A stretch of 64,000 nucleotides of DNA from a virus: positions 62,001 through 126,000 of the IMG/VR virus record IMGVR_UViG_3300050821_007134, one strand, 5' to 3'. The first letter of the stretch is position 1. Each line of letters begins with the position of its first letter. Made by a program: the position numbers and the translations under genes. This document shows, in pieces, positions 11,884 to 49,351 of this stretch. Under the pieces are notes generated by a model. The model ran no database searches. It was not told the DNA's origin and was given only the letters and a program-made list of their open reading frames with translations.

Positions 11884-11891
11884 AAAGATTA
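11884..11891 (-). promoter_or_regulatory. TAATCTTT element ahead of the tail tube gene
   Basis: Minus-strand TAATCTTT next to the sheath stop codon, about 20 nt ahead of the tail tube start. Variant of the late element; may allow extra tube mRNA. Confidence 0.35.
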
Positions 11892-14663
11892 AGCGGCGCT
11901 CTGTACTTGCGATACGTTAATGGTAATCGGTACGAAGTAGATAGCGGTTGCAAGCTTGATTTCGACTGCAACGTCCATTTCAGGACCATTGACGCTGACT
12001 TTGGGATTTTTGAACCCGAGAGGAGCATCTGTGCTGCCTGCGATTAACTTTAATCGTTTGTATCCATCCATTTTTTGAGCTAAGAAGCTCAAAGCGGTAG
12101 CGGCGTCGACATCGGCCAAGCTCTTACCAACAAAGGATGCTTGGAAGCTTGCGGCGAGATCGAGGGCCAAAATATCCGAAGCGTACACGGCTTGGATGCT
12201 GTTATAAACGAAATTGGCGTCAAAGGCATAAGTCGTTTGGTCACTAACCCAACGAACTCCAGCGGTATCTTTGGTCCAAAATAATAGACCAGCATCGAGT
12301 GCATCTTCAACATCACCAGGGCTACCCGAGTCAAATCCTGAAGGATCAAGGTAACTGATAACGTTTGCGAATTTGTTAACGATGGCTTTATAGAAACCGC
12401 CCGTTTGCATACCGGCAGCAACAACTGCTTGGTACCAAGGGAGGAAGCTTGTGATAACGCCTTGCGAGTTAACTTGCGAAGGCCTTTGGAAAGCCAAAGA
12501 ACAACGGTACTGAGCAATCCCTTGAGATTTTTGTTTCGTCTGAGCATAAGTTCCCCAGAAAGAAAGGATTGCGATACGATTCTTTTTAAGCTTCGGTGTG
12601 CTGAATTGGATACAATGAGCCTTAGCAGCTGCATGGATTGCATCAATGGTGTAGGTCGAAGATGAATCGGTTAATCCGTCAGCGATATCAGCGCTTGCAT
12701 CTCTTGAGAAGAGAGGAACGATAATGTTAACATTCAATCCAGCCAATGCGTTGATTGCAGCGATAACTTGAGCAGCAGAAGTTCCACCTTTGGTTCCACC
12801 AGATAAGAAAATTGGAGCTGCATTTGGATTGGGTAATCCAGAAGAAGCTTGAGGTGCGAAATTCAATGCGCGAGAAGTACTCATACCTTGTTCGAAAGAG
12901 AACAGAGCATCTTTAATTCTTCCAGGCTGTTCACCAGCTCCGCTTGAAGCGATACCGGCTGCGGTAACTGCATCTAAAGCAGAAGGAGGTAATTGCTGAG
13001 CAGAAGGAGAAGCTGAAGCTGAATATCCAGATTGAGAATTGATAAAAGCAGCAATGTCGGCAACCGTTCTGTATTGGCTAAGAGCGATACTTAAGTTAGC
13101 ACCTGATCCGCCACTAACAGTAGTCGTCAACATTTGACTTACGGGATTAATTGTTAAAGTTGCGGTCGTACCTTGGTAACCAACGTTTAAGGCAATTTGA
13201 GTTGCAACGTCGATTGTTTCGCTTAAGTTAATGTCGGCGCGGTTGATTTGAACTTCAACAGAAGCCTCTTGAGCGGCAACATTTAAACTGTCAGAAAGAC
13301 CTAAAGCGGCTAAATCTCCAGGAGTAGAGTCGAACAATTCAAAACTTCTTGCATCTCCCCTTCGATAAGCGGTAGCATCTATGGCCATGGTAAGAGCAAT
13401 ACTATTTGGTGCAGCGCCAGGTGATGCAGAGATTCCAGAGGGAAGTAACAAATTGAGTTCAGTTATTAACTGAGCCTGATTTGAGTGGTTAGCTCCGTTG
13501 ATTACTCCAGGAGGGAAATTTGTGATTGAAGTTCCAGGACTCACACCAACGTTACCATTGATAATAGTACCGCTAGATGCGCTACCAGTTACGGCTGAAG
13601 CACCTAAGAGACCAAACGTCCCAGCGTAATTTAATAGAGGAGCTTGCTGTGCGTTGACGACAGTGGGTGCGCTTAATGTGACGGCTCCAGTAAGAGCAAT
13701 TAAACTGCCGTTTACAACGGTTCCTAATGTGTCAGTGATTGATGCTTGAGCGATAACGTTACCTTGGAAAGTACCAGCGAATGAAGAATCAAGAGTTGCA
13801 GAACTTCCGACGAGCCAATAAACGTTTTTGGCTAAAGCGCCACCAGTAAAGTTAATAACAGGAGTACCGCTTGAACCAGTCACTAAAGTACTTGCAGTTT
13901 TGATTACGAATACGTCAGTTGAAGAACCGCTAAAAGTAAGAGGTCCGCCTGCATCTAAGGAAGCGGCGCCCGTGCTATAATAACCAGCGGTTAATGTTTG
14001 ACCATCGAGAACAGCGGGAATTGAAACATATCCGCCATGACCAGATAAACTTGTGTAAGCGGCCTGAGCAGCTGATTGAGCTGAAGCGGCTTCGCTTGGA
14101 CTAACTGGACCAGAAGAGCTGCTACTAAGAGTGATAACATTGGCTGCTCCACCGTTTAATCGAAGTGTAAAAGAAGCGCCGTCTAAAGCTGCACCGAATG
14201 CAGGGATAGTTCCACCGGAAAGGGTAGGAGGAGCTTCGGTAGCGATCGAAGTAACTTGATATCTGTATTGGTTTCCAGGAATGCCGAAATTTTGATCAGA
14301 AAAAAGTCCATAGTTAGTGTCAACAGCGGCAGAAGCCTTTGCACTCGTATTTGTTTTTACGATGTAGATTAAATTTGCAGACCCAGTGATATCAGCATCA
14401 GCTGAAGGAGCAGATAATGCTCTCATAGCATCAACGATTGGACCGCTAAGGTATTGTTGTTGAACTTTATCCAATTGATCTGGAGTAAATGAATTGCTGC
14501 TCAAAGGATTAAGATCACTGAAAACATCTCCACCATCGGCTTCACCGATTATGACTACGTTACCAGAAGATCCGATACCAACAGGTTGGCTTTGAACAAC
14601 GATGTTAGGATACGCTCCAGGGATATTGGTATTAATGAAACTTGTTGCTAGTCTTTGAGACAT
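11889..14663 (-). CDS. Contractile tail sheath protein with an inserted, circularly permuted DUF3494 domain
   Basis: 924 residues, longer than typical sheaths (roughly 400-700). The N-terminus (TSFINTNIPGAYPNIVVQSQ) and C-terminal third (hydrolase-free alpha/beta region with ALNFAPQ, SFWGTYAQTKQ and GFKNPKVSVNGPE) fit the contractile sheath family. Residues about 187-400 are an insertion with the conserved elements of DUF3494 ice-binding beta-solenoids in swapped order: first DGQTLTAGYY, FVIKTASTLVTG, NVYWLVGSSATL and FQGNVIAQASIT, then FGLLGASAVTG, INGNVGVSPGTS and NFPPGVINGANH. In ordinary DUF3494 proteins the second block is N-terminal. The insertion would decorate the outer tail surface. 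Strong AAGGAGAACGA ribosome site. Confidence 0.85.
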   Translation of the reverse strand: MSQRLATSFINTNIPGAYPNIVVQSQPVGIGSSGNVVIIGEADGGDVFSDLNPLSSNSFTPDQLDKVQQQYLSGPIVDAMRALSAPSADADITGSANLIYIVKTNTSAKASAAVDTNYGLFSDQNFGIPGNQYRYQVTSIATEAPPTLSGGTIPAFGAALDGASFTLRLNGGAANVITLSSSSSGPVSPSEAASAQSAAQAAYTSLSGHGGYVSIPAVLDGQTLTAGYYSTGAASLDAGGPLTFSGSSTDVFVIKTASTLVTGSSGTPVINFTGGALAKNVYWLVGSSATLDSSFAGTFQGNVIAQASITDTLGTVVNGSLIALTGAVTLSAPTVVNAQQAPLLNYAGTFGLLGASAVTGSASSGTIINGNVGVSPGTSITNFPPGVINGANHSNQAQLITELNLLLPSGISASPGAAPNSIALTMAIDATAYRRGDARSFELFDSTPGDLAALGLSDSLNVAAQEASVEVQINRADINLSETIDVATQIALNVGYQGTTATLTINPVSQMLTTTVSGGSGANLSIALSQYRTVADIAAFINSQSGYSASASPSAQQLPPSALDAVTAAGIASSGAGEQPGRIKDALFSFEQGMSTSRALNFAPQASSGLPNPNAAPIFLSGGTKGGTSAAQVIAAINALAGLNVNIIVPLFSRDASADIADGLTDSSSTYTIDAIHAAAKAHCIQFSTPKLKKNRIAILSFWGTYAQTKQKSQGIAQYRCSLAFQRPSQVNSQGVITSFLPWYQAVVAAGMQTGGFYKAIVNKFANVISYLDPSGFDSGSPGDVEDALDAGLLFWTKDTAGVRWVSDQTTYAFDANFVYNSIQAVYASDILALDLAASFQASFVGKSLADVDAATALSFLAQKMDGYKRLKLIAGSTDAPLGFKNPKVSVNGPEMDVAVEIKLATAIYFVPITINVSQVQSAA

Positions 14664-17298: not shown

Positions 17299-18054
17299 TT
17301 AATATTTTGCCAAAATTTGCGGCAATACGTTTGTTTCCCATTCTTTTAAAGCCCATTCATAGGCTTTTTCAAAAAAATGTTGTGCGTCGTATCCGGGGTG
17401 AATCCACTTACCTTCACTGGCCGGGCCACTACTTACAGTTCGAAAAGTCATAATGTCTCTTTGAACTTTTCCAGTAATACGATTTTTCTTTTGATATATC
17501 GTAACTCTAGCCAAAGCATCCGTTGTTGCCCTGCTTGTAGGCGGAGCGCTTGGGATACTGAATGAATGAAGTTTTCCAAGTCTTGGATTGCCACCAGATC
17601 CCGTTTCTATTTTCTTATAAGGGATTTTTCTGGCCTTCAATTCAGTTCTAATTTGGCTGACCAAACTTTGAGCGTATGAATTCATGGTAGATGGTGCCCT
17701 ACTATGCTCAAAAGGGATGGCCCTACTTTTATTACCTGTTCTAGGATTTACAGGAGCATCTTTTAAAAGAGATTCCTTCATATCCTTTCCGGGAGTAATA
17801 CCTTCTTCAATCCAAAGTGCGCTTTCATCAATGGTCAAAAGATGAACATGTGGCGCGATTTCTTGAGTCTTAAATCCTTTTTGGAATTGACTCAGCGTGG
17901 TATGAAGTTTATCTGCGGCCATTTCATCAATTTTTGCAGTAGTCATGGCGGCCAGACCATCGACGGCTTCTAAGATGTCCTTTTCAATTTCTTCTTTTGC
18001 TTCTTTAAATGCGCCAGCAATTGCCGAAGCATCAATATGTATTTTAAAGCTCAT
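17299..18054 (-). CDS. HK97-gp10-like head-tail/neck protein candidate
   Basis: 251 residues. The opening pattern (a short IHIDASAIAGAFKEAKEEIEKDI helix, then a basic mixed region and a C-terminal WIHPGYDAQHFFEKAYEW helix) resembles the HK97 gp10/tail-component family, where a conserved WxHPG-type motif precedes a C-terminal helix. These proteins sit at the head-tail interface. Overlaps by one base with the mCpol-like protein gene upstream. Moderate confidence; no catalytic residues expected. Confidence 0.6.
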   Translation of the reverse strand: MSFKIHIDASAIAGAFKEAKEEIEKDILEAVDGLAAMTTAKIDEMAADKLHTTLSQFQKGFKTQEIAPHVHLLTIDESALWIEEGITPGKDMKESLLKDAPVNPRTGNKSRAIPFEHSRAPSTMNSYAQSLVSQIRTELKARKIPYKKIETGSGGNPRLGKLHSFSIPSAPPTSRATTDALARVTIYQKKNRITGKVQRDIMTFRTVSSGPASEGKWIHPGYDAQHFFEKAYEWALKEWETNVLPQILAKY

Positions 18055-20228
18055 TAGTTATTCTCTTGAGCCGCTGCCTTAACAGGAACTCCGCTAGGAC
18101 CCATCACTACACCCTTTTTGCGATCAATCCATCGGGTCTTCCCGGTCTTTTGATCTATCGTCTTTTGTTGACCTTTCAGGTTTATAGAACCTGGAGTCAA
18201 AGGAGTTCTTGGAGTGTGCTTGGTCGTTGCTTTAGTGGGTAATTTTCCCAGGCCACTACCGCCTGGCTTACTTTCTTTTGGGGGCTCGTTAGCTGCACCC
18301 TCCTTAGGAGCAGCCGACTTATCTTTGTCTTCTTTTTTAGGAGGAAATCCACCTTTTTCTTTTCCAGGAGGACCTTCTTTGCCTTCTTTTTTCTCAGGAG
18401 CTTTACCGTCCTTCTTTGGAGGAAAGCCACCTTTTTCTTTTCCGGGTTCTTGTCCAGCTTCTTTGGCTGGATGACTACCACAAGTAGGACAAGGATGTTC
18501 TTCTTGGCCTGGAATTGGTTCTCCGGGCTGGCCTTGAGCACCTTGTTGTTCATTTGGAAGTTGTTCAGTACCATTTGAAATACCAAGCAATTTGGACATT
18601 TCAATCATGGCGCGAAGCATTGCGATACATGAAGAATAAAGCTCAGGGGATTGAGCCTGAGATTGTTCCAAAATTTGTTTGTTATTTTTAAACCCTTGAA
18701 GAGCTTGGCCGATCATCTGTTTTATTTGCTCTTTTTGAGCATCTTCGGCGCCGCCTTCTAAACCATCCTGCATTACTGATTGCATTGGAGGCTCTTCTTC
18801 CTGACCAGGAGGAAGTTCTTCTTGCTCTTGTCCAGGAATTTGTTGGTCGGAAGCCTGATCGGTAGGAGAAGCTTGACCCATCATATCATCTTGGGTATCT
18901 CCAGCATTCGGTCCTTCAAGATTTACGCCACCTTCAGGTCCGCCAGGCATACCAGTGTCTCCGGGAACATTCTGTTCCTTGAAACCATCTGGACGACTAA
19001 CATTCCCTTCCATCTCACTACCGACGGGCATAGCGCCACTATCAATATTGTTCATCTGTTCTTGCTGAACTTGTGGATCGGCAGGGGGAGTATCAACGTT
19101 CTCTTGAATTACTTCTTCAGCTTCTTCTTGAGGCTTGCCACAAGTCGGGCAATTTTGCGCGTGAGCTTCTTGTGGAGGCGCTTGGCCATTTTCAGGAGCT
19201 TCTTTAGGAGCTTCTTTGCCTTTTTCATCTTTCACTTCCTTTTTAGGTTTTTCTTTAGTATCCATATCACCTTCTGCCTTTTTAATAGGAGTTTTGAATT
19301 CATTTTTAGAGGGATCTTTACCGGTATCTTCGGCTTTTTCCCTAGGAGTAGACATTTCTTTTCCACTCGCATGTTTATTGGCTTGACCGTCTTCTTCTTC
19401 CTTTTGTTTTTCTTTTTTCTTATCAGGAAGAGCATTAGGTTGGCCCTGTTCGCCTTTGTTTTTATCTGGAAGTGGCCTGTCTTCAGCTAAGGCAACGTCG
19501 GGTCTAGTATCGCTTTTTGGCTCTTGTTGAGCAACTTTGGCGGATGCTTCTTGATTGACTTTTGCCGTAGCTTGTTCTGGAGATTCCTGAGTTAATGCAC
19601 TATCTTGTGCAACTTGAGAAGACTTTTCTGCCGATGTTCCTGCCGGTGTTTTGGCGGATGCCTTGGCGGATGTTTCGTCACTAGCAGTCTCAGAAGGAGT
19701 CTCACCAGTTTTCTCTTTTTGAATTTGATCTTTCTGCCATGAGTCTTGTTTGAAACCTTTATCATCTTCGGGCTTTAAATATGCTTCACCAAGCTTCTGT
19801 TCTTCTTCAGATCCTTGTCCTTGTGATAATCGATCTTGTGTGGCTTGGATGTCCTTATCAACGGAATCATCGTACATGACCACTTGATTTTTACCACGAA
19901 ATTTAGCAACCATCAGAGATTTTCCAGCTTGTGGAAGATCTTGGCCTACACCAACTGACATAGTCAGATTGGTTGCGAATTCATAATCGCGTCTTAATTC
20001 TTCGATATCTTGAACAGCTTCAGCCGGTAGAGAGAATAAACCTTCGTCTCCGCCCCCGCTGATGACCTGTCCATTATGTTCTTCAACCCATTTCTTAACA
20101 ACTTCATGGCCTAAACCAATGCGACTGGAGACTTCGCTAAGCGCGCCTGGATCGTTAGCCAAAATGGCACGACCTACAAGTCTACCGGCATTATCGCCAT
20201 CGTATGCTAAGAAAATCTGGTTAGTCAC
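18054..20228 (-). CDS. mCpol/GGDEF-like palm domain fused to a long low-complexity tail
   Basis: 724 residues. Residues 1-122 show the elements of a nucleotide-polymerising palm: LAYDGDNAGRLVG (acidic DGD, residues 10-12), a helix (ALSEVSSRIG), VISGGGDEGLFSLP (GGDE at 59-62), LTMSVGVG (89-95) and AKFRGKNQVVMYDD (108-121). The DGDNxG opening and the AKxxGKNxxxxYD close are nearest to mCpol (minimal CRISPR polymerase, the cyclic-nucleotide synthase of Panoptes-type defence), and more distantly to GGDEF and Cas10. The rest is E/Q/P/K/G-rich and disordered, with two CPTCG motifs, an IKKAEGD motif and GKEKGGFPPKK repeats. Lies among head-tail and internal-protein genes on the late strand, so it may be packaged. 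Activity is untested. Confidence 0.75.
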   Translation of the reverse strand: MTNQIFLAYDGDNAGRLVGRAILANDPGALSEVSSRIGLGHEVVKKWVEEHNGQVISGGGDEGLFSLPAEAVQDIEELRRDYEFATNLTMSVGVGQDLPQAGKSLMVAKFRGKNQVVMYDDSVDKDIQATQDRLSQGQGSEEEQKLGEAYLKPEDDKGFKQDSWQKDQIQKEKTGETPSETASDETSAKASAKTPAGTSAEKSSQVAQDSALTQESPEQATAKVNQEASAKVAQQEPKSDTRPDVALAEDRPLPDKNKGEQGQPNALPDKKKEKQKEEEDGQANKHASGKEMSTPREKAEDTGKDPSKNEFKTPIKKAEGDMDTKEKPKKEVKDEKGKEAPKEAPENGQAPPQEAHAQNCPTCGKPQEEAEEVIQENVDTPPADPQVQQEQMNNIDSGAMPVGSEMEGNVSRPDGFKEQNVPGDTGMPGGPEGGVNLEGPNAGDTQDDMMGQASPTDQASDQQIPGQEQEELPPGQEEEPPMQSVMQDGLEGGAEDAQKEQIKQMIGQALQGFKNNKQILEQSQAQSPELYSSCIAMLRAMIEMSKLLGISNGTEQLPNEQQGAQGQPGEPIPGQEEHPCPTCGSHPAKEAGQEPGKEKGGFPPKKDGKAPEKKEGKEGPPGKEKGGFPPKKEDKDKSAAPKEGAANEPPKESKPGGSGLGKLPTKATTKHTPRTPLTPGSINLKGQQKTIDQKTGKTRWIDRKKGVVMGPSGVPVKAAAQENN

Positions 20229-21183
20229 GTTTTTTCCTTAAAGTATCTAGGAGCATTTCAATGTTTTCTGCATCCCAGCCTTTACCAAATCTGACTTTTA
20301 TTCCCTGTTCGGTCTTTTTAATGAAGACCTTCTTTTCTCGATCCTCACCAAGACATATGCACCCGGAAAAAATAGATCCGTCAAAAATGTGCTTACCGCA
20401 ATCCGGGCATTCAACAGTTTCGCCTTTAGCCATCTCAATTGAGAATTCATTCTTTTTACTCTTCCTAAGTTCTATGAACTTTTTTAATTTTTCGTGACCC
20501 TTTTTCATGGGCTCAACAAATTCTGGTTCTTTTCCTGTTACAACAGATTCTACGACCTTCATACCGTTAGTCATTCCTCGAAAGTATTGATCGGACTGGG
20601 GTGTAGATTCCTGTTGAATTTTGGTTATTTCTGAAACTTTGTCTGTAAGTTTCAATAGAACCAATTTATCTACAGCTTCTCTCTCCATGAGTTTCTTATC
20701 GATAACTTTACCGATTAAATCATGAAGTGCTATTCTCTCATCGACTAATTTTTGAACCTTTGCGTCAATGTCAGTGTTACCACTTGACATATTCTCTGAC
20801 AATTGGTTAACGTCATAAAGTTCGAAAGCACTCATTATGACAAGTCCCACTCCTGGTATAGCGCGATTGACAAACTGCACTATTAGTTTAGAACCTTGTC
20901 TGATTTCTCCGCTATAAACGTCTCTTTCATGTTTTTGAGCATTTAGTATAGCGCCGCCTTCCACTGGAAGGTCGAATTCTTTATTTTCACCGATGGCCAT
21001 TGGTGTTAGTTCTTTGATGACTAAAGCCATTACAGTTCTTGGAACAATTTGTAAGGCGGTCCTTAATTCTTCATGATCGACAACGGTACGAGTTCCGGGC
21101 TTATAAAGCTCGAATTTCTGCAAAGACTCCATGTAGTCCTTGCCCAAGGTCTTTTTCAAGAAGAAGTTAGCGCCTGAGGCCAT
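20221..21183 (-). CDS. Virion-region protein with C-terminal zinc knuckle
   Basis: 320 residues. N-terminal half alpha/beta; centre helical; C-terminal 80 residues contain CPDCGKHIFDGSIF followed by GCICLGED, a four-cysteine zinc site, then a basic FIKKTEQGIKVRFGKGWD strand pair. Overlaps the mCpol-like gene by 8 nt, so the two are translationally coupled and may act together. No family recognised. Confidence 0.6.
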   Translation of the reverse strand: MASGANFFLKKTLGKDYMESLQKFELYKPGTRTVVDHEELRTALQIVPRTVMALVIKELTPMAIGENKEFDLPVEGGAILNAQKHERDVYSGEIRQGSKLIVQFVNRAIPGVGLVIMSAFELYDVNQLSENMSSGNTDIDAKVQKLVDERIALHDLIGKVIDKKLMEREAVDKLVLLKLTDKVSEITKIQQESTPQSDQYFRGMTNGMKVVESVVTGKEPEFVEPMKKGHEKLKKFIELRKSKKNEFSIEMAKGETVECPDCGKHIFDGSIFSGCICLGEDREKKVFIKKTEQGIKVRFGKGWDAENIEMLLDTLRKKRD

Positions 21184-21674: not shown

Positions 21675-22601
21675 TTATTCGCCTTCTGTAATTGTGGACA
21701 TATCCACTGGTATCACGGGGTTAGCTGGGTCAATGGATTCAGTGGGCGCTTCCACGACTCTTCCAGGTGTCTTCGATTTGAGCTGATTGACTTGGTCACC
21801 CTTATTTTGATTGTGATAGATGTATTCCCGGACGATCTCAGCGTAGTAGGGCATTCTTTCGGGACTTCTGACGCCATTAGTCGTAACATTGGTGATTCGG
21901 ATTTCTTTGGGGAGGCTGACCACATACCAAAAAGCATTGTAGAGATATCTGATTGAATATATTCGGCCTTTTCCGGTATCTGGATCAATTCCTGGATTTT
22001 TTCCGCCTTTTTCCCAGCGAATGCTGCCTTCACTTGTGAGGCAAAAATCAACACCGAGTTTGTATTCAATATTACGGCTGTCGATTAAAAACTCAATACT
22101 TACAATAGGATACATCGGAATATTGTCCGCATCAGGGGTGTAATCCATTTTATGATATGTGGCTACTTTGGTGTCTGCCTTTGGATCGGCAACATAAAGT
22201 CTATCACCAGGGGCCAAATAAATTCTATCACCATTCGACATGTCGGGGGTTCCCGGAGCATTATAGAACCTAGGCAGGACCAAACGGCCAACGGCCACGT
22301 CTACGAACCCGCCATCACTTTTCTTCTTGTCTCGTTTGTCATCTGTCATGGTGGCCGAGAAAACTCCGCCACATTTGTAAATAAAGCCGTTTGAGGTAAT
22401 TGTGTCGACTCCGTCGCTTCTGCGGTAGTCACCCTTGTCTTTTTGACCAATAGGGCTAGGAATTGCCTTGTAATGGTTGAAATCAACGGCGAAGCTTGTG
22501 ACAAAAGCATCCTGTTTGGCCAGATCTAAAGAATGCTGGACGAAGGGACTTTCGCGTTGAATATCATCGACTTGTATGCCGACGGGTTTACGATCTGACA
22601 T
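21675..22601 (-). CDS. Neck/head-completion candidate
   Basis: 308 residues. Alpha/beta with conserved-looking segments (GIQVDDIQRESPFVQHSLDLA, FSVEYLIYNAF-type aromatic clusters) and a P/T-rich C-terminus. In this gene order, proteins of this size between capsid and tail genes are usually head-completion or tail-terminator proteins, but no motif confirms it here. Confidence 0.5.
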   Translation of the reverse strand: MSDRKPVGIQVDDIQRESPFVQHSLDLAKQDAFVTSFAVDFNHYKAIPSPIGQKDKGDYRRSDGVDTITSNGFIYKCGGVFSATMTDDKRDKKKSDGGFVDVAVGRLVLPRFYNAPGTPDMSNGDRIYLAPGDRLYVADPKADTKVATYHKMDYTPDADNIPMYPIVSIEFLIDSRNIEYKLGVDFCLTSEGSIRWEKGGKNPGIDPDTGKGRIYSIRYLYNAFWYVVSLPKEIRITNVTTNGVRSPERMPYYAEIVREYIYHNQNKGDQVNQLKSKTPGRVVEAPTESIDPANPVIPVDMSTITEGE

Positions 22602-22960: not shown

Positions 22961-23482
22961 TTATTTACCCGTAATTTTAACCTTTGACGCATTGCAAGAC
23001 ATTGCCTTCTCGGCAGTTGCCCCGGCCAGTGCCCGGCGGAATTCTTGCGGTGCAGTAACACCATCAATAACAATTGAATCTCTCTCGAAATGGCTCATTA
23101 CAGAGGCCACCTTAGCGTTATTTTTGGTAATGTGAAATTCCACCATGCTACCATTTTGGATAGAATAAATACCATGACCAGACTTCCTAAGATCCTCGCT
23201 CAACCAATGAGAATGTTCATCGACGATGGAAGAATCAGTCATTCCCTCGCTTTTCATCAAAGCTGGCTGAAAGTCTGGGTATTGTTTTCCAAGGTTGAAC
23301 TTTACAACAGCTGGATGACTCCCTGCGGCTAAAGCTTCTTCCCTGTATTTGCCTTTTGGTTTACCAATGGCAATCCAGAAACCTCCGCGAGTGCGGATCA
23401 TTTTAACTGGATGTTTGTCGAGCATACCAGCATCTTCTATATGTTCAATTTCTTTTTCAGTGAGAATTGGCTTGTCGCTCAT
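22961..23482 (-). CDS. Probable internal virion protein
   Basis: 173 residues. The N-terminal part (RGGFWIAIGKPKGKYREEALAAGSH) followed by LMKSEGMTDSS resembles a recurring segment in phage head-region proteins; LMKSE and LRKSG are of the KSE type seen in neighbouring genes. The C-terminal half has strands (GSMVEFHITKNNAKV) and EFRRALAGATAEKA. Role unknown; possibly packaged. Overlaps the upstream lysozyme-like gene by 4 nt. Confidence 0.55.
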   Translation of the reverse strand: MSDKPILTEKEIEHIEDAGMLDKHPVKMIRTRGGFWIAIGKPKGKYREEALAAGSHPAVVKFNLGKQYPDFQPALMKSEGMTDSSIVDEHSHWLSEDLRKSGHGIYSIQNGSMVEFHITKNNAKVASVMSHFERDSIVIDGVTAPQEFRRALAGATAEKAMSCNASKVKITGK

Positions 23483-24990
23483 TTCTTAACTCCTTGATTA
23501 TAGGCATTATTTATTTTTATTACATGCCAGTGTTTACTAATGTCTTGTTTGTCGTGTTGGGCCTTATAAGTACCGCGAATTCCTTCTAACCATGCATATC
23601 CTATTTTCTGCGGATCGTTGCCAAAATGTTTTTCAAGTCTTTTCAAATGCTGCTTAGCAATAGTGTCTTCTAGGCCTGGATTGTCTCTCATGAAGTTTTG
23701 CAATTGGGGACCGCGAAGGATAGTGGCTTTTTGATATTTGTGCTTTAGTTCTGGATGAAGGCTTATTGTTTCTCGTATGATATTTGGCGTTAAAGCATAC
23801 TTACCGTATGCTTGTTCGCCAGAATGTAATCTCTTGTGATGTGTGTTCTTGCCGCCGCTACTTTCGACAGAAGCGATAGTTCTAAGCATGTGTTCTGGAC
23901 TGTAAGTGGGAGCCTTGAATGCCGGGGCTTGCATAACCTTTGGAGCCGCGTCTACACTTTGGGGAGCGGCGGGCTGACCAATTAAAGAAGAAGCGGCGAT
24001 CATTGCGCCTGCGGCTTTAGTCTTAAAGCTTTTTTCCATGTCTTCTGTAAATTCATATATGGTATTCCCGGCGCCTTTTTCAACACTAAGGTTATCGAAA
24101 TGGACTTCATCCGGAGATAGACCCTCCTTCTTTATTTGGTCATAAAGAGGCTTGTCGATTGTAACGTGTGTGAAATATTCTTTATATTGCACTCCGTCAA
24201 TAGTGTCATAGAATTTTTTGTATTCTGGAGGGCATCCGTCAATCATGAGCATGAAATAATCGGCATCGCTATAATCAGAATGATGAATTTTGGTATGGAA
24301 TCTTAAAGCATGAGGATCTGGTTTTGTAATTCCAAGTCGTTTGACTTTGGCTTTGATATCTTCGATATCCATCTTTTGTTTTTCGTCAAAAACCTTAAGA
24401 GACATATGAAGAGGAATATCATCCGTTAAGAATTTACGACCTTTGATGGTTACTTTGAAAAGTACATCTCCGCCAGATTTTGCTTTCTTTCGATATTCAT
24501 TGCAAACACCAGTTCCGATTTTTTCTCTTTTAGCAATATCGGGCTCGATAAGTTGATTGTTAATAGTCTGTTCGGGAGATCTCTGTACTCCACTTTGACC
24601 TTCGCCTTCAGCACCAGGATTTGATCGCATATCGCGATCTCCAGTTTCAACCTTTAGTACTTTGATGCCATAGGCAGCGAGTTCTTTAGCCCATTTGTCC
24701 TGCTCTTCTTTATGGCAAACTACGTAGGCAGAATCAATAAATTCCCTACTTTTTTGAATGATGACATGATCTGGGTATTTCATTGCAAAAAGTTCAACGG
24801 CTCCAGGAGGACTGGACGATTGATCTAAAATGATTTTACAATCAGATGGAATTTCCATGACAGGATTGTAAGTATCATTGTTTATGACAGTATCTCCGGC
24901 GCTACCACTAGGAGCAGACCCCGACTCAACGATATCGCTAAGTTCTTGAATAGAATCTTCCAATGTGCGTCTCATATGTTTATGCAGCAT
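23479..24990 (-). CDS. Large internal protein with C-terminal transglycosylase/lysozyme-like domain
   Basis: 503 residues from the ATG at 24990 (GGGAAG lies ahead; ATGs at 25005 and 24975 are alternatives). The C-terminal 140 residues carry MLRTIASVESSGGKNT, HSGEQAYGKYALTPNIIRET and IGYAWLEGIRGT, the E-SSGG-H-AxGxYxLxP pattern of phage soluble lytic transglycosylase-like domains in virion-associated or ejected proteins. The N-terminal 350 residues are an unrecognised alpha/beta region. Likely helps cell-wall penetration or acts after ejection. It follows the polyvalent-type protein and overlaps it slightly. Confidence 0.65.
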   Translation of the reverse strand: MLHKHMRRTLEDSIQELSDIVESGSAPSGSAGDTVINNDTYNPVMEIPSDCKIILDQSSSPPGAVELFAMKYPDHVIIQKSREFIDSAYVVCHKEEQDKWAKELAAYGIKVLKVETGDRDMRSNPGAEGEGQSGVQRSPEQTINNQLIEPDIAKREKIGTGVCNEYRKKAKSGGDVLFKVTIKGRKFLTDDIPLHMSLKVFDEKQKMDIEDIKAKVKRLGITKPDPHALRFHTKIHHSDYSDADYFMLMIDGCPPEYKKFYDTIDGVQYKEYFTHVTIDKPLYDQIKKEGLSPDEVHFDNLSVEKGAGNTIYEFTEDMEKSFKTKAAGAMIAASSLIGQPAAPQSVDAAPKVMQAPAFKAPTYSPEHMLRTIASVESSGGKNTHHKRLHSGEQAYGKYALTPNIIRETISLHPELKHKYQKATILRGPQLQNFMRDNPGLEDTIAKQHLKRLEKHFGNDPQKIGYAWLEGIRGTYKAQHDKQDISKHWHVIKINNAYNQGVKK

Positions 24991-26200
24991 GATGCCACTT
25001 CCCATGTACTATGTTTTCGGGCAGTAGACCAGCTTTTTGATCTGCGTAAACTGTCTTTTGAGGATTTTTTCTATTTTCTTCGCCATGTTTGCCAAAATTG
25101 ACGGTATTATTTTGTCCCATCGTTTCTGTGGCGAGTGCCTTTTGTGCTTCAGGAGAATACATTTGTTTGTGAGTTAAGAATGCAGAATGTTCACCCTTAG
25201 GACCAAAAGTATGTCCTTCTTTGGCATGACCAAAATAATCGTGTACTATTCTGAATACGTCATTGGCAAGTAGTGGGCTGCCTTCATGGAGAATCTTTGT
25301 AGGTGTCAATAGAGGATGATCCTTCGGAGCACTTCCTTCAGAACCAAATCCACCTTCTGTTGGGAAAAACCAGAGATGATTGTTATTATGGATATCGTGC
25401 ATTACGTCTTTTGAATTTTTATAAGGGTTGGCCATTCCCGGTTTGATCTTTGAAATCTTCAATCCACTATTCTTAATATGGTTGAACTGATCCATAGTTT
25501 CATTGATCAGGGCGCCATATGCTTTCTGAACAGCTGGGTCTCCGGGACTGTGCTTCATTCCTTCATATGAACTAGCTATTTGTTTACCGTGTTCTGGATT
25601 AACATTGACAGCTGGTGTAGGAGATAGTTTTATCCCTTTACTTTTGGCATAACTCTCCGCAACTTGTTTTACTTTATTGTCAGGTTTCAGACCAATACTA
25701 GGAGTAGGTTGAGCAGCAGATTGAATTGGTTTTTCTTCGGCCTTTTTCATATCTTCATTGAAGTTATGAGTAAATCGTCCGGCGCCACCAGGAAGAGTTG
25801 TATAAAAATCTTTTGGCTGTTGAGCATGCCAGGTAGTTCCTTGTCCCATTACTTTCTGCCCAGCTTTTTCTCCATGATGATAACGCATTTCATGTTTCTT
25901 TCCAGTAGAATAAATGGAACTCTCTTGACCCAGATTAGCGGCTAATGAATGAAGTTGTTCGGCTTGTTGGGGAGAAATTTTGTAAATGATTATTGATTTT
26001 TCTGGTTTTCCATAATGACCCATAACTTCATGGGCGTCGTACTGAGCACCCTTAAGATGTTTCAAAACAGCTGCATGATCTAGATTTAACTTGTTTTGTT
26101 CTGGGTATATTGGATTGTCAGCGGACATAAGGAAATGCGGTCCGGAAATGCTTTTCCGGTGATCTTTCATCGCATTTAATATGCCTCTATCAACGCCCAT
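24980..26200 (-). CDS. Polyvalent-type phage protein with the NDVFRIVHDYFGH domain
   Basis: 406 residues. The C-terminal 150 residues contain FFPTEGGFGS, LANDVFRIVHDYFGHAKEG, HSAFLTHKQMYSPEA and ATETMGQNNTVNFG, a conserved block found in large phages and in polyvalent or MuF-linked proteins that are ejected into the host. The N-terminal 130 residues (SADNPIYPEQN, SIIIYKISPQQ, GQESSIYSTG) resemble DUF3293. A single MKKAEEKP motif joins the two. Biochemical activity of the block is unknown. Probable co-ejected effector. Confidence 0.65.
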   Translation of the reverse strand: MGVDRGILNAMKDHRKSISGPHFLMSADNPIYPEQNKLNLDHAAVLKHLKGAQYDAHEVMGHYGKPEKSIIIYKISPQQAEQLHSLAANLGQESSIYSTGKKHEMRYHHGEKAGQKVMGQGTTWHAQQPKDFYTTLPGGAGRFTHNFNEDMKKAEEKPIQSAAQPTPSIGLKPDNKVKQVAESYAKSKGIKLSPTPAVNVNPEHGKQIASSYEGMKHSPGDPAVQKAYGALINETMDQFNHIKNSGLKISKIKPGMANPYKNSKDVMHDIHNNNHLWFFPTEGGFGSEGSAPKDHPLLTPTKILHEGSPLLANDVFRIVHDYFGHAKEGHTFGPKGEHSAFLTHKQMYSPEAQKALATETMGQNNTVNFGKHGEENRKNPQKTVYADQKAGLLPENIVHGKWHHAA

Positions 26201-27626: not shown

Positions 27627-28256
27627 ATGTCAGCAAAAGTCATTGAATTCGAAGGGATCGACGGCTCGGGAAAGACCACGGCCTATAACTACTTCATTCA
27701 GACATTAAGAGATCAAGGTAAGAGAGTTTTGGACACCCGAGAAGTGGGAAATCCCCATATTCCCGTCTGTGTCGCTCTAAGAAAATTAGTTCTTGATCCC
27801 TCAAGTAAAATGGATGGAATGTCCATGGAATTCGTGTTTGCTGCTATGCGTATCGAAAATCAAAGAATGTATCGCGCTGTCGAAAATGACTATGATTACA
27901 TCGTAAGCGATCGAGGTCTTCTTTCTCACTTGGCTTACACAGACCACAATGTGACTTCAGTTTTTACAGACATGTTTTATCGTGGCCTTGTGATGCAATA
28001 CACACAAAATCCTGATCAAGTCATATTTTTGGAAATTGATCCAGAAACAGCTCTTAAACGTAGAAATTTGCGAAATGGTTTTGTCGACGCCATTGAAGCA
28101 AAAGGACCTGAATTTCAACGAAAGGTTTATTCCAGTTTTACAAAATACATCCATGAATTAGCAGAAAATACCGGTCTAAGTTACACGATGATTGATGCCA
28201 ATGTTAGTATCGAAGAAGTTCAAGCTCAATTGGACAGAGTAATTTCCGAATTATAA
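27627..28256 (+). CDS. tmk: Thymidylate kinase (dTMP kinase)
   Basis: 209 residues, usual length. Phosphorylates dTMP to dTDP with ATP for phage DNA synthesis. Motifs: P-loop FEGIDGSGKTT (residues 8-18), the DTREVG region that corresponds to the DRx substrate site, YIVSDRGLLS (catalytic DR), and a LID-region ALKRRN with FQRKVYSSF after it. Preceded by AAGGAGAAAAAC. A lone plus-strand gene between two minus-strand late blocks, ending in a shared terminator hairpin. High confidence. Confidence 0.93.
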   Translation: MSAKVIEFEGIDGSGKTTAYNYFIQTLRDQGKRVLDTREVGNPHIPVCVALRKLVLDPSSKMDGMSMEFVFAAMRIENQRMYRAVENDYDYIVSDRGLLSHLAYTDHNVTSVFTDMFYRGLVMQYTQNPDQVIFLEIDPETALKRRNLRNGFVDAIEAKGPEFQRKVYSSFTKYIHELAENTGLSYTMIDANVSIEEVQAQLDRVISEL

Positions 28257-28338: not shown

Positions 28339-29307
28339 TTAGGGGCCAGTGTTGCCGCTGATTAATGTAACTGCGGTCTGAGCATAGAGAGATCCGTGAA
28401 CCGTACATGTCGCTTGAACTGCGATTGATGTTTGATCCAAGATAACGCCTCTGAATATTGAACTTGTTTTCAGAGTGGTTGCGCCTGCAACTGCCCATGT
28501 AACGTTTTGTGGCAAGATTCCACCAGTCAAATGAATTTGAACACCAGTTTCTAAATTGAGAGTACCGGCAATTTGAAGGATGATTGAATCTGCGGGTCCG
28601 CCATTGATAGTGATATCACCAGTGACATCGACTGCTGTGGACCATTTGTAAATCCCAGGAGTTAAAGTTTGACCGTTAAGAGTACCTGCGCCTAAGTTAA
28701 CAACCGGAGCTGGGCTTGTTTGTGCTTGAGCAAAAGTGTAAGCAGCTTGCATTGCACTAACAGCTGCCGTTAAGTTTGCAGGAGTTGGAGCTGCGTTATC
28801 GGAAGCATCCACGTTTCCAGAAACTTCAACAGCACTTCCATGTGGGCCAGCGAGATTTGGAGTGTATGTGAAACCAGTGATTGCAGTATGTGAAATTGGA
28901 CTTACTGCAATGTTACCTGTAACTGTTGCGCCGGATGCATTGCTGATTCCAGATTCAGCTAACATTCTGTAATTTGAAGCAGAACCTAAGTTTACCAAAG
29001 CTGGGCCACGATGAACAGGAATTGCGCAATGAGCATTGATGCTTGCAACGACGGCTTCCATAACATCATCACTTGCGAACCCATCTTCCATTACTGCTTG
29101 GTCATGCAGAGAAAGAGATCTTTGACATAACATAGCAGCTTGAATATTTTGGGCTACGGTTTTGCTGCCCATGGCGTCTGTCAATCTAATGAAAGTTTTT
29201 GGTGAGAGAATTGCGCCAGCATCGATTGCTGCACAAAATTCTTTACCGGCTTTTACGTCTGCCAGTGCGACAATGACGTTGGGAATAAATTTACTCGGGA
29301 ATGCCAT
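28339..29307 (-). CDS. Capsid-locus protein with a DUF3494 (ice-binding-fold) domain
   Basis: 322 residues. Residues 1-100 are a helical domain of unknown family. Residues about 103-320 have DUF3494 elements in the usual order: LVNLGSASNYRMLAESGIS, TGNIAVSPISHTAITGF, AAPTPANLTAAVSAMQAAY, LNGQTLTPGIYKW, SIILQIAGTLNL, NVTWAVAGATTL, IFRGVILDQTSI and VHGSLYAQTAVTL. The fold is a right-handed beta-solenoid first known from ice-binding proteins, but many members bind other surfaces. Strong AAGGAGATTTT ribosome site and own late-type promoter next to the capsid gene suggest an abundant decoration or fibre protein. No signal peptide. Confidence 0.8.
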   Translation of the reverse strand: MAFPSKFIPNVIVALADVKAGKEFCAAIDAGAILSPKTFIRLTDAMGSKTVAQNIQAAMLCQRSLSLHDQAVMEDGFASDDVMEAVVASINAHCAIPVHRGPALVNLGSASNYRMLAESGISNASGATVTGNIAVSPISHTAITGFTYTPNLAGPHGSAVEVSGNVDASDNAAPTPANLTAAVSAMQAAYTFAQAQTSPAPVVNLGAGTLNGQTLTPGIYKWSTAVDVTGDITINGGPADSIILQIAGTLNLETGVQIHLTGGILPQNVTWAVAGATTLKTSSIFRGVILDQTSIAVQATCTVHGSLYAQTAVTLISGNTGP

Positions 29308-29914: not shown

Positions 29915-31315
29915 TTATGATCCACCAGGGGTCAATTGACCAGTGATGTTCTCAAGAAGAACGTTTTTGCGAGGTTGGAAAACAGCGAGAGACAAGAATC
30001 TGAAATGTGCTTCGGGGAGCGACAAGTCATTGATTGCAAGTTTCAATTTGCTGTAAGGAGCCAATTGAGCGATGCTCATTGTGTTTCCTTGAACGAGGAA
30101 CCCTGTAACAGATCCTTCAGATCGGTTACCGAGGTCGGTAAATACTGGGTTACCAATCCCTTGAGAGATCTTACCGATGAACTTAGCAGAAGCGGCAGAT
30201 CCACCAGCACTTGAACGATAAACGTTGTAGTACTGAGCGCCAGCAACAGCGGTAATGGTAACGGTAACTTTATCACCGGCCAAAGCAACTGCTTGCGAAG
30301 CGGAAGGGGAGGGGAGCGACTCACCACGGATACTTACGGCGGTTACATAATAAACGTATGTAGCAGCTTGGAGTAATGATCCGGCAGCACCGGCATCAGC
30401 AAGAGCAGGAGCAGCGGGTTGATTTGGGCTGCCTGCGCGAGCGCGTGCGGGGCGGGTTTTACCAGAGAGGAAACGAGAAGCTTCTAGCGAAACAATGGCA
30501 CTTGATGTCCATTGAGTTCGTAAATGAGCGCCTGAGGCCTCTTGAGGAGAACCGGCGAGCATAATACGTTCTTTCGCATGAGCGATTTTGTTATATTGAC
30601 TGAGGGTGATAGGATCGAGAACGAGTCTGTCAGCAGCACCCATGTTCATTGCTGAACGAACCGAGCTATCTTCGATGATGGACTGTGCTAATGCACCGCC
30701 AACAGAGAGGATAACAGTTTGGTCTGAACCGTACTCAGCAAACATCAAGTCTTGAGTGTTTGATTGAGCATCGGATTGACGAACTTGTTGATCGAGACCG
30801 ATCATGTTTGGAACTTTTGCGACTGCAAGAGGGTTACCATCGAACACCCCAGCATTGGAGAAATCTGATTGTCCTCGGAAGAGGTCAAATTCGATATCGC
30901 CAGCAAGCTTCATAGCTGCGTCAGCTGAAGCTCTATCTTCGGCTTTAACACCGTCGAAAGCACCAATCATATTGGCAGCAACAGTGACTCGACGAGTCGT
31001 GCTGTAATATGACATGGGGACTACTGCACGAACATAATTCGTGGTGTCTTCTTCGCCGATTCCGCCTTCAAATTGAGCAGAACCTCCGAAAATACCATAG
31101 TCAAGTTGACGGTTAAACTGGTGAAGCTGAGACTTAACGTCTTTGCTTGGCAGCATTTTTTGCAACTTGATATGACTGTCATCGAATGTAACATTATGCA
31201 TTACGGGGGAAAGATCTTCCACCATAAGTGCAGCACCTTGAGCCAATTGGCCGGGAGCCGCGTTATAGCTACCTGCTTCTAGGGCTTTCATAAGTGACTG
31301 AAGTTGTTCGATCAT
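29915..31315 (-). CDS. Major capsid protein with an inserted Ig/Fn3-like domain
   Basis: 466 residues. HK97-fold capsid proteins of large myoviruses have a similar size and sequence plan: an N-terminal arm (GALMVEDLSPVMHNVTF), a segment QLDYGIFGGSAQFEGG, a central FRGQSDFSNAGVFDG region and a C-terminal LSLPEAHFRFLSLAVFQPRKN strand. Residues about 295-400 look like an inserted fibronectin-III or Ig-like domain (PAAPALADAG, TYVYYVTAVSIRGES, AQYYNVYRSS), probably exposed on the capsid surface. Strong AAGGAGAAAAAT ribosome site and its own terminator. Codon choice and expression signals fit the most abundant virion protein. Confidence 0.85.
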   Translation of the reverse strand: MIEQLQSLMKALEAGSYNAAPGQLAQGAALMVEDLSPVMHNVTFDDSHIKLQKMLPSKDVKSQLHQFNRQLDYGIFGGSAQFEGGIGEEDTTNYVRAVVPMSYYSTTRRVTVAANMIGAFDGVKAEDRASADAAMKLAGDIEFDLFRGQSDFSNAGVFDGNPLAVAKVPNMIGLDQQVRQSDAQSNTQDLMFAEYGSDQTVILSVGGALAQSIIEDSSVRSAMNMGAADRLVLDPITLSQYNKIAHAKERIMLAGSPQEASGAHLRTQWTSSAIVSLEASRFLSGKTRPARARAGSPNQPAAPALADAGAAGSLLQAATYVYYVTAVSIRGESLPSPSASQAVALAGDKVTVTITAVAGAQYYNVYRSSAGGSAASAKFIGKISQGIGNPVFTDLGNRSEGSVTGFLVQGNTMSIAQLAPYSKLKLAINDLSLPEAHFRFLSLAVFQPRKNVLLENITGQLTPGGS

Positions 31316-45972: not shown

Positions 45973-47745
45973 TTAGGGCCTCTCATTCGCTTCGTTTACA
46001 TATTGATCGGCCTGTGATGTCGCTCGACCGAATTCAGCGTCAGCCTTGGCTTCAGATCTTTCGAACTGATCGTCCCTAGGATGGCATACGATGCCGCCGC
46101 AGGTTCCAAGGATGGTTGCGATACTTACCGCATTAGATAAAGATTCCTCCACAGCCTTCGTGGCGTCAAATAGGCCTAACTCCTCAGCTTTTCCGAATCG
46201 TTGATTTTCAATGTCGTAGACTTCGTCAGGACTTTCGATCAATTTCCTAATAACGGCTTCGGCTTCTTCCGGGATGTATCCGGAGTTATCCAGAAGCTTA
46301 TTCGGTAGCGAAAGGAGGGACGGCATGAGTACTTCCCTTGCCGGGTCTCCGGCCTCAAGCTCAGAATCCAGCTTAAGCGCCATGTCGATTGCGATTCGGC
46401 AGCCGCCTGGCAAAGCTCCATGTTTAATGGCGCTTCTGACTGCGCATACGGCGTCTTCGCATCTATCGTGAGCTTCTTTGAGTTCGCCATTTGAACCCCC
46501 ATAAATGGTTAATTTGGCAATACCGTTTGTAATTTTACCCAATCGTTCTTGAAGCCATATTCTATCGGCTTCGGATTCGGCACCTTCCATCATTTTGTTA
46601 AGTTCTTCTGCGCGCATTTCTACCAATGTAGTATCGGGGTTACCGATAACTGTGGATCGAAACCTGTAGCATTCAAAAGACTCTGAACCAACACCAAGTT
46701 GACCCATATGTCCATTCTGAACTGGGTCCTTCATACTGAACACTTTGGCCCCAGTAAAGGCGGCCAAATCATGTAAGAAGTGGAGTTGACTATTAGTGAA
46801 CTGATGCATTGGCGTAACCAGTGGAACAACATTCAATGTGTTTGGATTGTTCATGTTAAACGCCAATTGCGTCAGGACTGTTTCGCTAAAACCATGAGCA
46901 ACGATTACAATATTCTTGTAATCACTGTCACCTTCTTCAACGAACTTTTTTCCGCAGCTGTCTAAAAGGCCTTGGAAACCCATTAAATCATTTACATTAC
47001 CGTCATAAAGGATGTAGAGAGGTTTTTCTAAGTAGCATCTTTGGTTGGCTTGATCATTGATGAATGCTGTGTGAAATTTACCAATACTCTCTTCGTATCC
47101 CATAGGAATAGGAAACCCATCGATTCGCTCGACCTTATATCCGGATTTTCCGGAAAGTTCGCGAATTGTGACGTGGGAACTATCTCCATACCCTACTTCT
47201 TCAAATGCTTGGATAACGGCATTGGCCATATCAGTATCGCCATTGGCGCTGACAGTCGCAACCATCTTAAGCATTTCTTTATTATCTACGCCGACTTTAA
47301 TGCTACGAGAACGAATGTAAGGAACCAATAATTCTTTGGTTACTTTTGCAATTCGTCTAGCGGCTTTCTGAGGGCTGTATTTTGGATTCTTTTTACAGAA
47401 ATCAAATAAGTTAGCTATAATGTTATAAGAAAGGATGGTAGCCGTAGTGGTACCGTCTCCCGCTTCGGATGCGGTTCTCTTAGCGGCATCGCGAGCTTGC
47501 TCGGTGATCAAATGCTCATATGCATCGATTGCGCCTAGACTGTCAAAAACAGTAACGCCGTCTTTTGTATTTTTGTTGCCGATTCCAGGGAAATCACTTT
47601 CTATTAAAATATTCATGCCGCCGGGGCCAAGCGTTCTTCCAACGGCTTCTGAGACACGGTGCATCGTTTTAAGAATTTTATTCTGAAGTGTTTTTTTGTC
47701 GATCTCATAAACCTTAGGGGCCGACTTCGCTTTTCTATAAGACAT
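45973..47745 (-). CDS. GroEL-type chaperonin (phage-encoded Hsp60)
   Basis: 590 residues from ATG 47745, directly after a perfect AGGAGG; an in-frame extension to 47841 would run through the promoter. Conserved ATPase residues: VGRTLGPGGMNILIE, NTKDGVTVF (Asp52 of GroEL), ASEAGDGTTTATILSY (Asp87) and AHDRCEDAVCAVRSAI (Asp398), with GALPGG before the last domain. Lacks the GGM-rich tail. Phage chaperonins are known from phages EL and OBP and fold phage proteins. No clear groES lies beside it. Shares a divergent promoter region with the helicase. Confidence 0.93.
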   Translation of the reverse strand: MSYRKAKSAPKVYEIDKKTLQNKILKTMHRVSEAVGRTLGPGGMNILIESDFPGIGNKNTKDGVTVFDSLGAIDAYEHLITEQARDAAKRTASEAGDGTTTATILSYNIIANLFDFCKKNPKYSPQKAARRIAKVTKELLVPYIRSRSIKVGVDNKEMLKMVATVSANGDTDMANAVIQAFEEVGYGDSSHVTIRELSGKSGYKVERIDGFPIPMGYEESIGKFHTAFINDQANQRCYLEKPLYILYDGNVNDLMGFQGLLDSCGKKFVEEGDSDYKNIVIVAHGFSETVLTQLAFNMNNPNTLNVVPLVTPMHQFTNSQLHFLHDLAAFTGAKVFSMKDPVQNGHMGQLGVGSESFECYRFRSTVIGNPDTTLVEMRAEELNKMMEGAESEADRIWLQERLGKITNGIAKLTIYGGSNGELKEAHDRCEDAVCAVRSAIKHGALPGGCRIAIDMALKLDSELEAGDPAREVLMPSLLSLPNKLLDNSGYIPEEAEAVIRKLIESPDEVYDIENQRFGKAEELGLFDATKAVEESLSNAVSIATILGTCGGIVCHPRDDQFERSEAKADAEFGRATSQADQYVNEANERP

Positions 47746-47764
47746 CTTGTGTCCTCCTGTTTCT

Positions 47765-47802
47765 CGCTTTGTATATATCACAACTCCATGATATACAAAG
47801 CG
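47765..47802. promoter_or_regulatory. Inverted repeat forming two divergent extended -10 promoters
   Basis: CGCTTTGTATATATCA (47765-47780) and TGATATACAAAGCG (47789-47802) are near-perfect inverted repeats around CAACTCC. Each arm holds an extended -10: plus strand TG-A-TATACA (47789-47797), minus strand TG-A-TATATA (47780-47772). The two polymerases would overlap. The plus-strand transcript would start at about 47803-47805, i.e. at the helicase ATG. Confidence 0.6.
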
Positions 47803-47803
47803 T

Positions 47804-49351
47804 ATGGAATTAATTATTGAAAATCCCGTGAAGGCCGTCATTAAAGGGGCCGATGTACAAACCTTGATTGCTCTTAAAGAAGAGCTTACCTACGTTAATA
47901 CGGGGAATAAGCAACAACTTAAACGCCTGGTCCACAGTCAATGGGAGAAAAATAAAGATCCCGAGAAATGGGCTGCTGACATTGAATGGCTTAAGAACCA
48001 CATAACTAACGTCCTCATGTTTAAAGATCAACAAAATCAAGTATTTATACGTCCGGGTTCAATTTCATATTTAACACAATTTACAGATTACAATTTACAA
48101 ATTGTAAATCATGTGGAATATCCAACACCTAAGGCGGTGGCTTGGGCTCATAAGCTACCATTTGAATTACACGACTATCAACAAGAGAGTGTCGACAAGT
48201 TTATTGCGGTGCATCATGGCCATGTAGCACTTTGTACGGGGTCCGGAAAGAGCGCAATCATCCTAAAGTATTGTAGAGAGACAGGTTTTCGGACTGCCAT
48301 TGTAGCACCTTCATCTAGCATTTTTAACGAGCTTTATGACAAATTTGAACATCATTTAGGTCGAGTTCATACGGGCGGTTTCGGGGATGGTAAAAAGAAA
48401 CTGGACAAAAGATTTACAGTTTGCATTGGCGATAGTTTGGTCAATATAGAAGAGGGCAGCGAAGAATGGGAATTTTTCAGTAACCTCGATGCCATCGTTG
48501 TCGACGAAAGCCATACATGGGCCGCTGAAACTCTTGACAAACTTTGTCATGGCCTTTTCGCGAAAGTCCCGAATCGTATCTTCTTAAGTGGTACGCAGGT
48601 TCGCGGAGACGGCGCCGGTAAGCTCCTGGAGAGCATCATTGGCCCAAGGCAGGTAGAACTCACCACTGAAGAGGCTATCAGGAAGGGTTACATTTGTGAC
48701 CACGATTTCTCGATTGTAGAGCTTGAGTCAAGTAATCCCAGTTATCAAAATGCCGATATAATGAAAATGAAGCGCGTTCACTTCCTAAACAATAGAAATA
48801 TCGCGGCCTTTACGGCCAAGTTCGCAAATGTTATGGCAGCTCAAGGATTACAAACTCTTGTTTTAGTTCAAGAATTAAGTCAAATTGCAATGTTCATAAA
48901 GCTGCTTAGGCCGGAAACGACGTTTGCTTATGCGCATAGTCAAACATCCAAAAAGGAACTTTTAAAAATAGGTCTTGAGCCGGTCGACAAAGAAGACGCA
49001 GTTGAAAGATTTAATAAAAATGAGATCAAGGTCCTAATAGGAACAAGCTGTATCGCCACGGGAACCAATATATTCCCCATGAGACATACATTCAATTGGG
49101 TCGGAGGATCTTCCGAGATCAACGCGAAACAGGGGGCCGTAGGCCGCACAGTTCGCCTGTGGGAACATAACCCCTGGAAAGACAAATGCGTGAGACATAC
49201 CAAAAAGACGATCTGGGATTTCGATGTCTATGATATAGATGCATTAGGACACCAACTGGTTAAAAGAATTGAATATTATAGAGATTCTGGAACCGAAATC
49301 AAAAGGATCAATTTAAGTGGCAAAACAAAAGCGTCAGGAGAGGTTCGATGA
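47804..49351 (+). CDS. UvsW-like superfamily 2 DNA helicase
   Basis: 515 residues, usual for UvsW. N-terminal domain (about 110 residues) then a helicase core: Q-motif-like LHDYQQESVDKF, Walker A LCTGSGKSAIIL, VVDESHTWAAET (DESH), FLSGTQVRGDG (motif III), VLIGTSCIATGTNI (motif V) and QGAVGRTVRLWEH (motif VI). In T4 UvsW unwinds R-loops and branched DNA, ending origin-dependent replication. It has no ribosome site: the ATG sits at the inverted repeat edge, so the mRNA is probably leaderless. Confidence 0.85.
   Translation: MELIIENPVKAVIKGADVQTLIALKEELTYVNTGNKQQLKRLVHSQWEKNKDPEKWAADIEWLKNHITNVLMFKDQQNQVFIRPGSISYLTQFTDYNLQIVNHVEYPTPKAVAWAHKLPFELHDYQQESVDKFIAVHHGHVALCTGSGKSAIILKYCRETGFRTAIVAPSSSIFNELYDKFEHHLGRVHTGGFGDGKKKLDKRFTVCIGDSLVNIEEGSEEWEFFSNLDAIVVDESHTWAAETLDKLCHGLFAKVPNRIFLSGTQVRGDGAGKLLESIIGPRQVELTTEEAIRKGYICDHDFSIVELESSNPSYQNADIMKMKRVHFLNNRNIAAFTAKFANVMAAQGLQTLVLVQELSQIAMFIKLLRPETTFAYAHSQTSKKELLKIGLEPVDKEDAVERFNKNEIKVLIGTSCIATGTNIFPMRHTFNWVGGSSEINAKQGAVGRTVRLWEHNPWKDKCVRHTKKTIWDFDVYDIDALGHQLVKRIEYYRDSGTEIKRINLSGKTKASGEVR

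Follow-up and report, generated by a model that had tools for sequence, protein, structure and literature searches.

An mCpol-Family Domain Encoded Among the Late Structural Genes of a Phage Clade Related to Mx1

Organization of the Locus

The window, the whole stretch of 64,000 nucleotides analyzed here, is part of a virus record of 171,073 bases (G000) from a phage that belongs with Myxococcus phage Mx1 and is more remotely related to SPO1. An open reading frame on its minus strand (18054–20228) starts with GTG and encodes a protein of 724 amino acids with an mCpol domain at the N-terminus (residues 6–119; 19872–20213, minus strand), a low-complexity tail, and a putative helical segment toward the C-terminus. 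The start of this gene overlaps by 8 bases the gene of a 320-amino-acid protein, hereafter the partner (20221–21183, minus strand). Downstream lies a homologue of SPO1 gp7.1 (17299–18054, minus strand; profile match with E 1e-13), and upstream a weak homologue of the SPO1 virion structural protein gp6.4 (21675–22601, minus strand; E 0.001 to gp6.4 and 1e-52 to Mx1).

A preliminary description of the locus had placed the gene in a late virion operon, and its position in a late structural operon was borne out. The operon is anchored upstream by the major capsid protein gene (29915–31315, minus strand; phrog_752) and downstream by the tail sheath gene (11889–14663, minus strand; phrog_279). Matches to the major capsid protein, sheath, tube, portal, and terminase all lie within the window, and the synteny with SPO1 extends to profiles of window genes that match gp6.1, gp6.3, gp6.4 (weakly), gp7.1, sheath, and tube.

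Several other features of the window were noted in passing. The tail sheath contains an Ice-binding-like domain (PF11999) at residues 174–335, and a second such domain is encoded by a separate gene beside that of the major capsid protein (28339–29307, minus strand; E 4e-54). A thymidylate kinase gene (27627–28256) lies on the plus strand inside the structural operon. A 508-amino-acid protein of the operon (23479–25005, minus strand) resembles a lytic transglycosylase by eye in its C-terminal part and has no Pfam match. The phage also encodes a GroEL chaperonin (45973–47841, minus strand; phrog_5725 and Cpn60 Pfam matches).

Identity of the N-Terminal Domain

Members of the mCpol family have so far been described from bacterial and archaeal defense loci. 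In residues 1–122 of the 724-amino-acid protein, the preliminary description had recognized the motifs DGDNAG (D10–G15), SGGGDE (S57–E62), MSVGVG, and AKFRGKN, all of which are present as described, and it had named mCpol as the closest family. The Pfam mCpol profile (PF18182) aligned with residues 6–119 over its full length (profile positions 1–114 of 114) at 51.5 bits (E 1.6e-13; cut-off 26.4 bits), and a six-frame search returned the same domain at 56.2 bits as the sole mCpol match in the entire genome. The runner-up family, Cas10 palm2, scored 26.4 bits, below its cut-off of 27, and Pfam found no further Cas10 domain in the open reading frame. The Pfam GGDEF profile (PF00990) had no match in the genome, in a search in which 9 of 14 control genomes were matched. 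When the phage sequences were used as a profile against the PDB, both OptS (mCpol) sequences were matched with E values of about 1e-19, and the first GGDEF protein appeared at 0.08. WD-40 entries in that search were disregarded, being repeat proteins whose matches spanned about 50 residues. A search of a defense library gave weak Cas10/mCpol matches only.

Structure prediction led to the same family. An AlphaFold2 model of residues 1–132, built from 31 alignment rows with the Mx1 rows left out, reached a pLDDT of 96.8 and a pTM of 0.89. The first six Foldseek matches of this model were mCpol structures (Klebsiella OptS 9pd0 and 9mnr, and 9nwn), with GGDEF, adenylate cyclase, and Cas10 structures ranked behind them; for the best, Klebsiella OptS, the predicted model gave TM scores of 0.81/0.88 and an rmsd of 1.4–1.6. 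VIA-align gave Z scores of 17.4–18.1 to mCpol structures (rmsd 1.5 over 118 residues for the best) and of at most 13.6 to the others listed. Both computational checks that the preliminary description had proposed, profile searches and structure prediction, thus put mCpol/OptS at the top and returned no unrelated fold as the best match.

Short motifs of this kind recur among palm enzymes, which could in principle allow a chance motif or an unrelated palm fold to be misread as mCpol. Such a misreading is scarcely conceivable in view of the full-length Pfam match far above the cut-off, the strength of the OptS profile match, and the clear lead of mCpol in the fold ranking. The N-terminal domain is almost certainly a member of the mCpol family.

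Conservation of the Gene Among Related Phages

An initial scan of viral contigs for close relatives yielded one; scans anchored on the sheath and on the subclade brought more, and a sheath alignment was used to collect 80 loci. An iterated HMM search of the sheath loci found mCpol in nearly all that have enough upstream sequence, namely in 32 of the 33 sheath-anchored contigs that extend 5.9 kb or more upstream, near-duplicates among them. Scans anchored on mCpol itself listed 34 loci, every one beside a sheath. A profile search of genome contigs with the mCpol alignment gave no match. The same protein layout recurs in dozens of uncultured viral contigs. Of 48 relatives, 45 have a gp7.1-like gene on the downstream side of mCpol; on the upstream side, a gp6.4-like gene is present in 32 of 33. 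The mCpol gene is therefore part of the core of this phage clade and not an accessory. Phage-encoded mCpol found no mention in the open-access literature searched, including the passages searched in the two Panoptes papers.

Three relatives merit separate description. In Mx1, whose major capsid protein is 52% and whose sheath pieces are 44% identical to those of the window, a homologue (WNM70340) occupies the same place. Contig L123 carries a short form of 228 amino acids without the helical segment; just upstream of it lies the gene of a 1585-amino-acid protein (L123 3096–7853) in which GNAT and NUDIX parts can be seen by eye. Contig L020 is the exception: its gene start overlaps in the same way, and tail, CxxC pairs, helical segment, and partner are all there, but the mCpol domain is missing. 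In SPO1 itself, no homologue of the mCpol protein was found, and about 70 bases separate gp6.4 from gp7.1.

The Tail and the Partner Protein

As the preliminary description had stated, a low-complexity tail of about 600 residues follows the domain; it measures 597 amino acids, is rich in E, K, G, P, and Q, and is probably disordered. The tails of relatives are likewise of low complexity, often with CxxC pairs. Within the tail, a segment of about 54 amino acids (residues 500–553; 18570–18731, minus strand) recurs in almost every relative, persists in truncated copies, and is present even in the L020 protein, which has no mCpol. Its sequence pattern points to a helix, and it is a candidate docking element.

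The partner carries a CxxC...CxC pattern near its C-terminus. Where the upstream sequence is available, nearly every relative has a homologue in it, mostly directly adjacent and often overlapping. No fold match was found for the partner with a low-confidence model. A role of the partner as a nucleotide receptor was considered and set aside, since the model is weak and the matches to Acb4 were insignificant (E values of 0.5 or higher, TM about 0.1–0.3). Searches for SAVED and Cap15 receptors gave no match, and the controls of both searches were silent as well.

Catalytic Residues and Their Evolution

In Klebsiella OptS (KpOptS), an enzyme of demonstrated activity whose site is formed across two protomers, D6 and D57 are the metal-holding residues, and replacement of either by Asn abolishes synthesis, according to PMC12657218. 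The preliminary description had held that the metal-binding acids are present in the phage domain, and indeed D10 (codon 20199–20201, minus strand) aligns with D6 and D61 (codon 20046–20048, minus strand) with D57. Among 45 distinct complete domains, the D6 column holds D in 33, N in 11, and S in one, and the D57 column holds D in all except Mx1, which has A. Read together at D6, D8, and D57 of OptS, 33 domains including that of the window are DDD, 11 are NDD, and Mx1 is SDA. Furthermore, the Lys pair that corresponds to K105 and K109 of OptS is retained in 44 of 45. Of two base-contacting residues, S30 aligns with S34 of the window (codon 20127–20129, minus strand) in a column of S (38/45) or T (7/45), and N34 aligns with G38 in a variable column. 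Most lineages keep the full set of catalytic acids, which speaks for activity in them, and judged from these residues the domain of the window lineage is likely to be catalytically active.

The 11 NDD domains form one clade (support 95/91), which fits a single change. They retain D8, D57, and the Lys pair, and catalysis has apparently been lost in this clade. Selection nevertheless continues to act on it: the median dN/dS was 0.20 among NDD pairs, well below 1, and 0.07 in the DDD group (11 usable pairs; strong purifying selection), values that can be trusted only as to the direction of selection because dS is often near saturation and the pairs are few and non-independent. In pairs where both could be computed, the domain is under tighter constraint than the tail. 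The Mx1 domain is probably inactive, since the equivalents of D10 and D61 are S and A; an earlier tree gave it a very long branch within the NDD group, a placement that is unreliable. The NDD clade and Mx1 indicate that the domain can persist without catalysis, and together with L020 they imply that some relatives can do without catalysis or even without the domain.

Mx1 also encodes a separate GGDEF protein (WNM70324; L089 17173–17904) between the prohead protease and the major capsid protein. Replacement of the lost activity by such a gene remains an anecdote because Mx1 alone has one: no match turned up in any other record searched, among them three NDD records of 153–167 kb and many fragments.

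These observations bear on whether the palm domain has been re-used as an assembly part or as a sensor of NTPs or cyclic nucleotides in the neck, its catalytic residues being ancestral or serving binding only. The fixation of D6N in a clade that still conserves the rest of the site, the retention of a degenerate copy in Mx1, and the fixed place among structural genes are all consistent with this. However, the other 33 domains keep all the acids under tighter constraint, SPO1 builds a related particle with no homologue found, and in L020 the tail and partner persist although the domain is absent, so that assembly does not strictly require the domain. As a general explanation, re-use is a possibility that we hold to be somewhat doubtful. 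The structural or binding role that the preliminary description had offered as an alternative is favored for the D6N clade and Mx1 and not for the lineage of the window.

A Proposed Particle-Tethered Synthase and Its Possible Roles

The explanation that we prefer, and to which we give about an even chance, is that the product of this late structural gene is an mCpol cyclic-dinucleotide synthase with a tether to the particle or to an assembly intermediate. The mCpol domain would pair with a second copy, bind two NTPs across the dimer, and make a cyclic dinucleotide; that the product contains adenine is a guess from S34. The tail and helical segment would hold the domain at the head–tail neck, probably by way of the coupled 320-amino-acid partner, the virion location being suggested by synteny. 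The product might act inside the host late in infection, or already at entry should the protein be ejected, and in one descendant clade catalysis would have been lost and the domain kept for nucleotide binding. The domain identity, the catalytic residues, the near-universal synteny, and the purifying selection on which this explanation is based are observed; D6N in 11 relatives, the loss of acids in Mx1, the absence of the domain from L020, and the lack of conservation at the equivalent of Asn34 count against it.

A special case of the tethered synthase is an ejected or late-made anti-defense enzyme, whose cyclic dinucleotide would silence Panoptes-type effectors or compete at CBASS or type III CRISPR effectors. 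PMC12657218 describes how the products of OptS keep Panoptes effectors in check, so a copy made by a phage could block them in principle, and OptS is the closest relative of the phage domain. Yet a near-universal gene in a fixed position argues for a basic role over optional counter-defense, and the apparent loss of catalysis across a whole clade points the same way. Counter-defense genes usually have a patchy distribution. The anti-defense role that had been put forward at first is weakened by this placement and by the continued conservation of the domain in the D6N clade, and we consider it distinctly unlikely.

A broader form of the tethered synthase would make it a core particle part across a widespread phage clade, delivered or deployed to set the second-messenger state of the host and reduced in one descendant clade to a non-catalytic nucleotide-binding part. 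We offer this as a speculation that is rather unlikely to hold in full.

A core phage mCpol, together with a natural clade that carries a published inactivating substitution, provides a ready comparison for how phages use the enzyme. It also suggests that cyclic-nucleotide synthases move between defense and virus, and the phage copies enlarge the pool of diverse mCpol sequences available to studies of product choice.

Comparison With Known Systems

Compared to known systems, the phage domain is most like OptS/mCpol of Panoptes (KpOptS 9mnr and 9pd0; 9nwn), with which it shares sequence and fold over the whole domain, equivalents of Asp6, Asp57, and Ser30, and the Lys pair. It differs in several respects. 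First, it is only about 25% identical to OptS and has a GGDE motif where KpOptS has AADG. Second, a long low-complexity tail with a helical segment is fused to it, and its gene belongs to a structural operon. Third, no adjacent 2TM-beta effector was seen. A Panoptes operon includes an effector of the OptE type (S-2TM-beta, or 2TM with CARF/SAVED); the partner showed no detectable relation to these, and the Cap15 and SAVED searches, which gave no match, had silent controls.

Other palm enzymes are less similar. Cas10 palm2 of type III CRISPR (PF22335) has a related palm fold and a sub-threshold Pfam match, but its scores are lower and the phage protein lacks the other Cas10 domains. GGDEF diguanylate cyclases (PF00990), including WNM70324 of Mx1, share the palm fold and a GG[D/E]E motif, but their fold score is lower (Z about 13 versus 18) and the genome of the window has no Pfam match to them. 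A further close counterpart is WNM70340 of Mx1, which has a homologous domain and a similar helical segment in the same interval between major capsid protein and sheath, and which differs from the window protein in the changes of D10 to S and D61 to A and in a partner homologue of 312 amino acids that lies two genes away.
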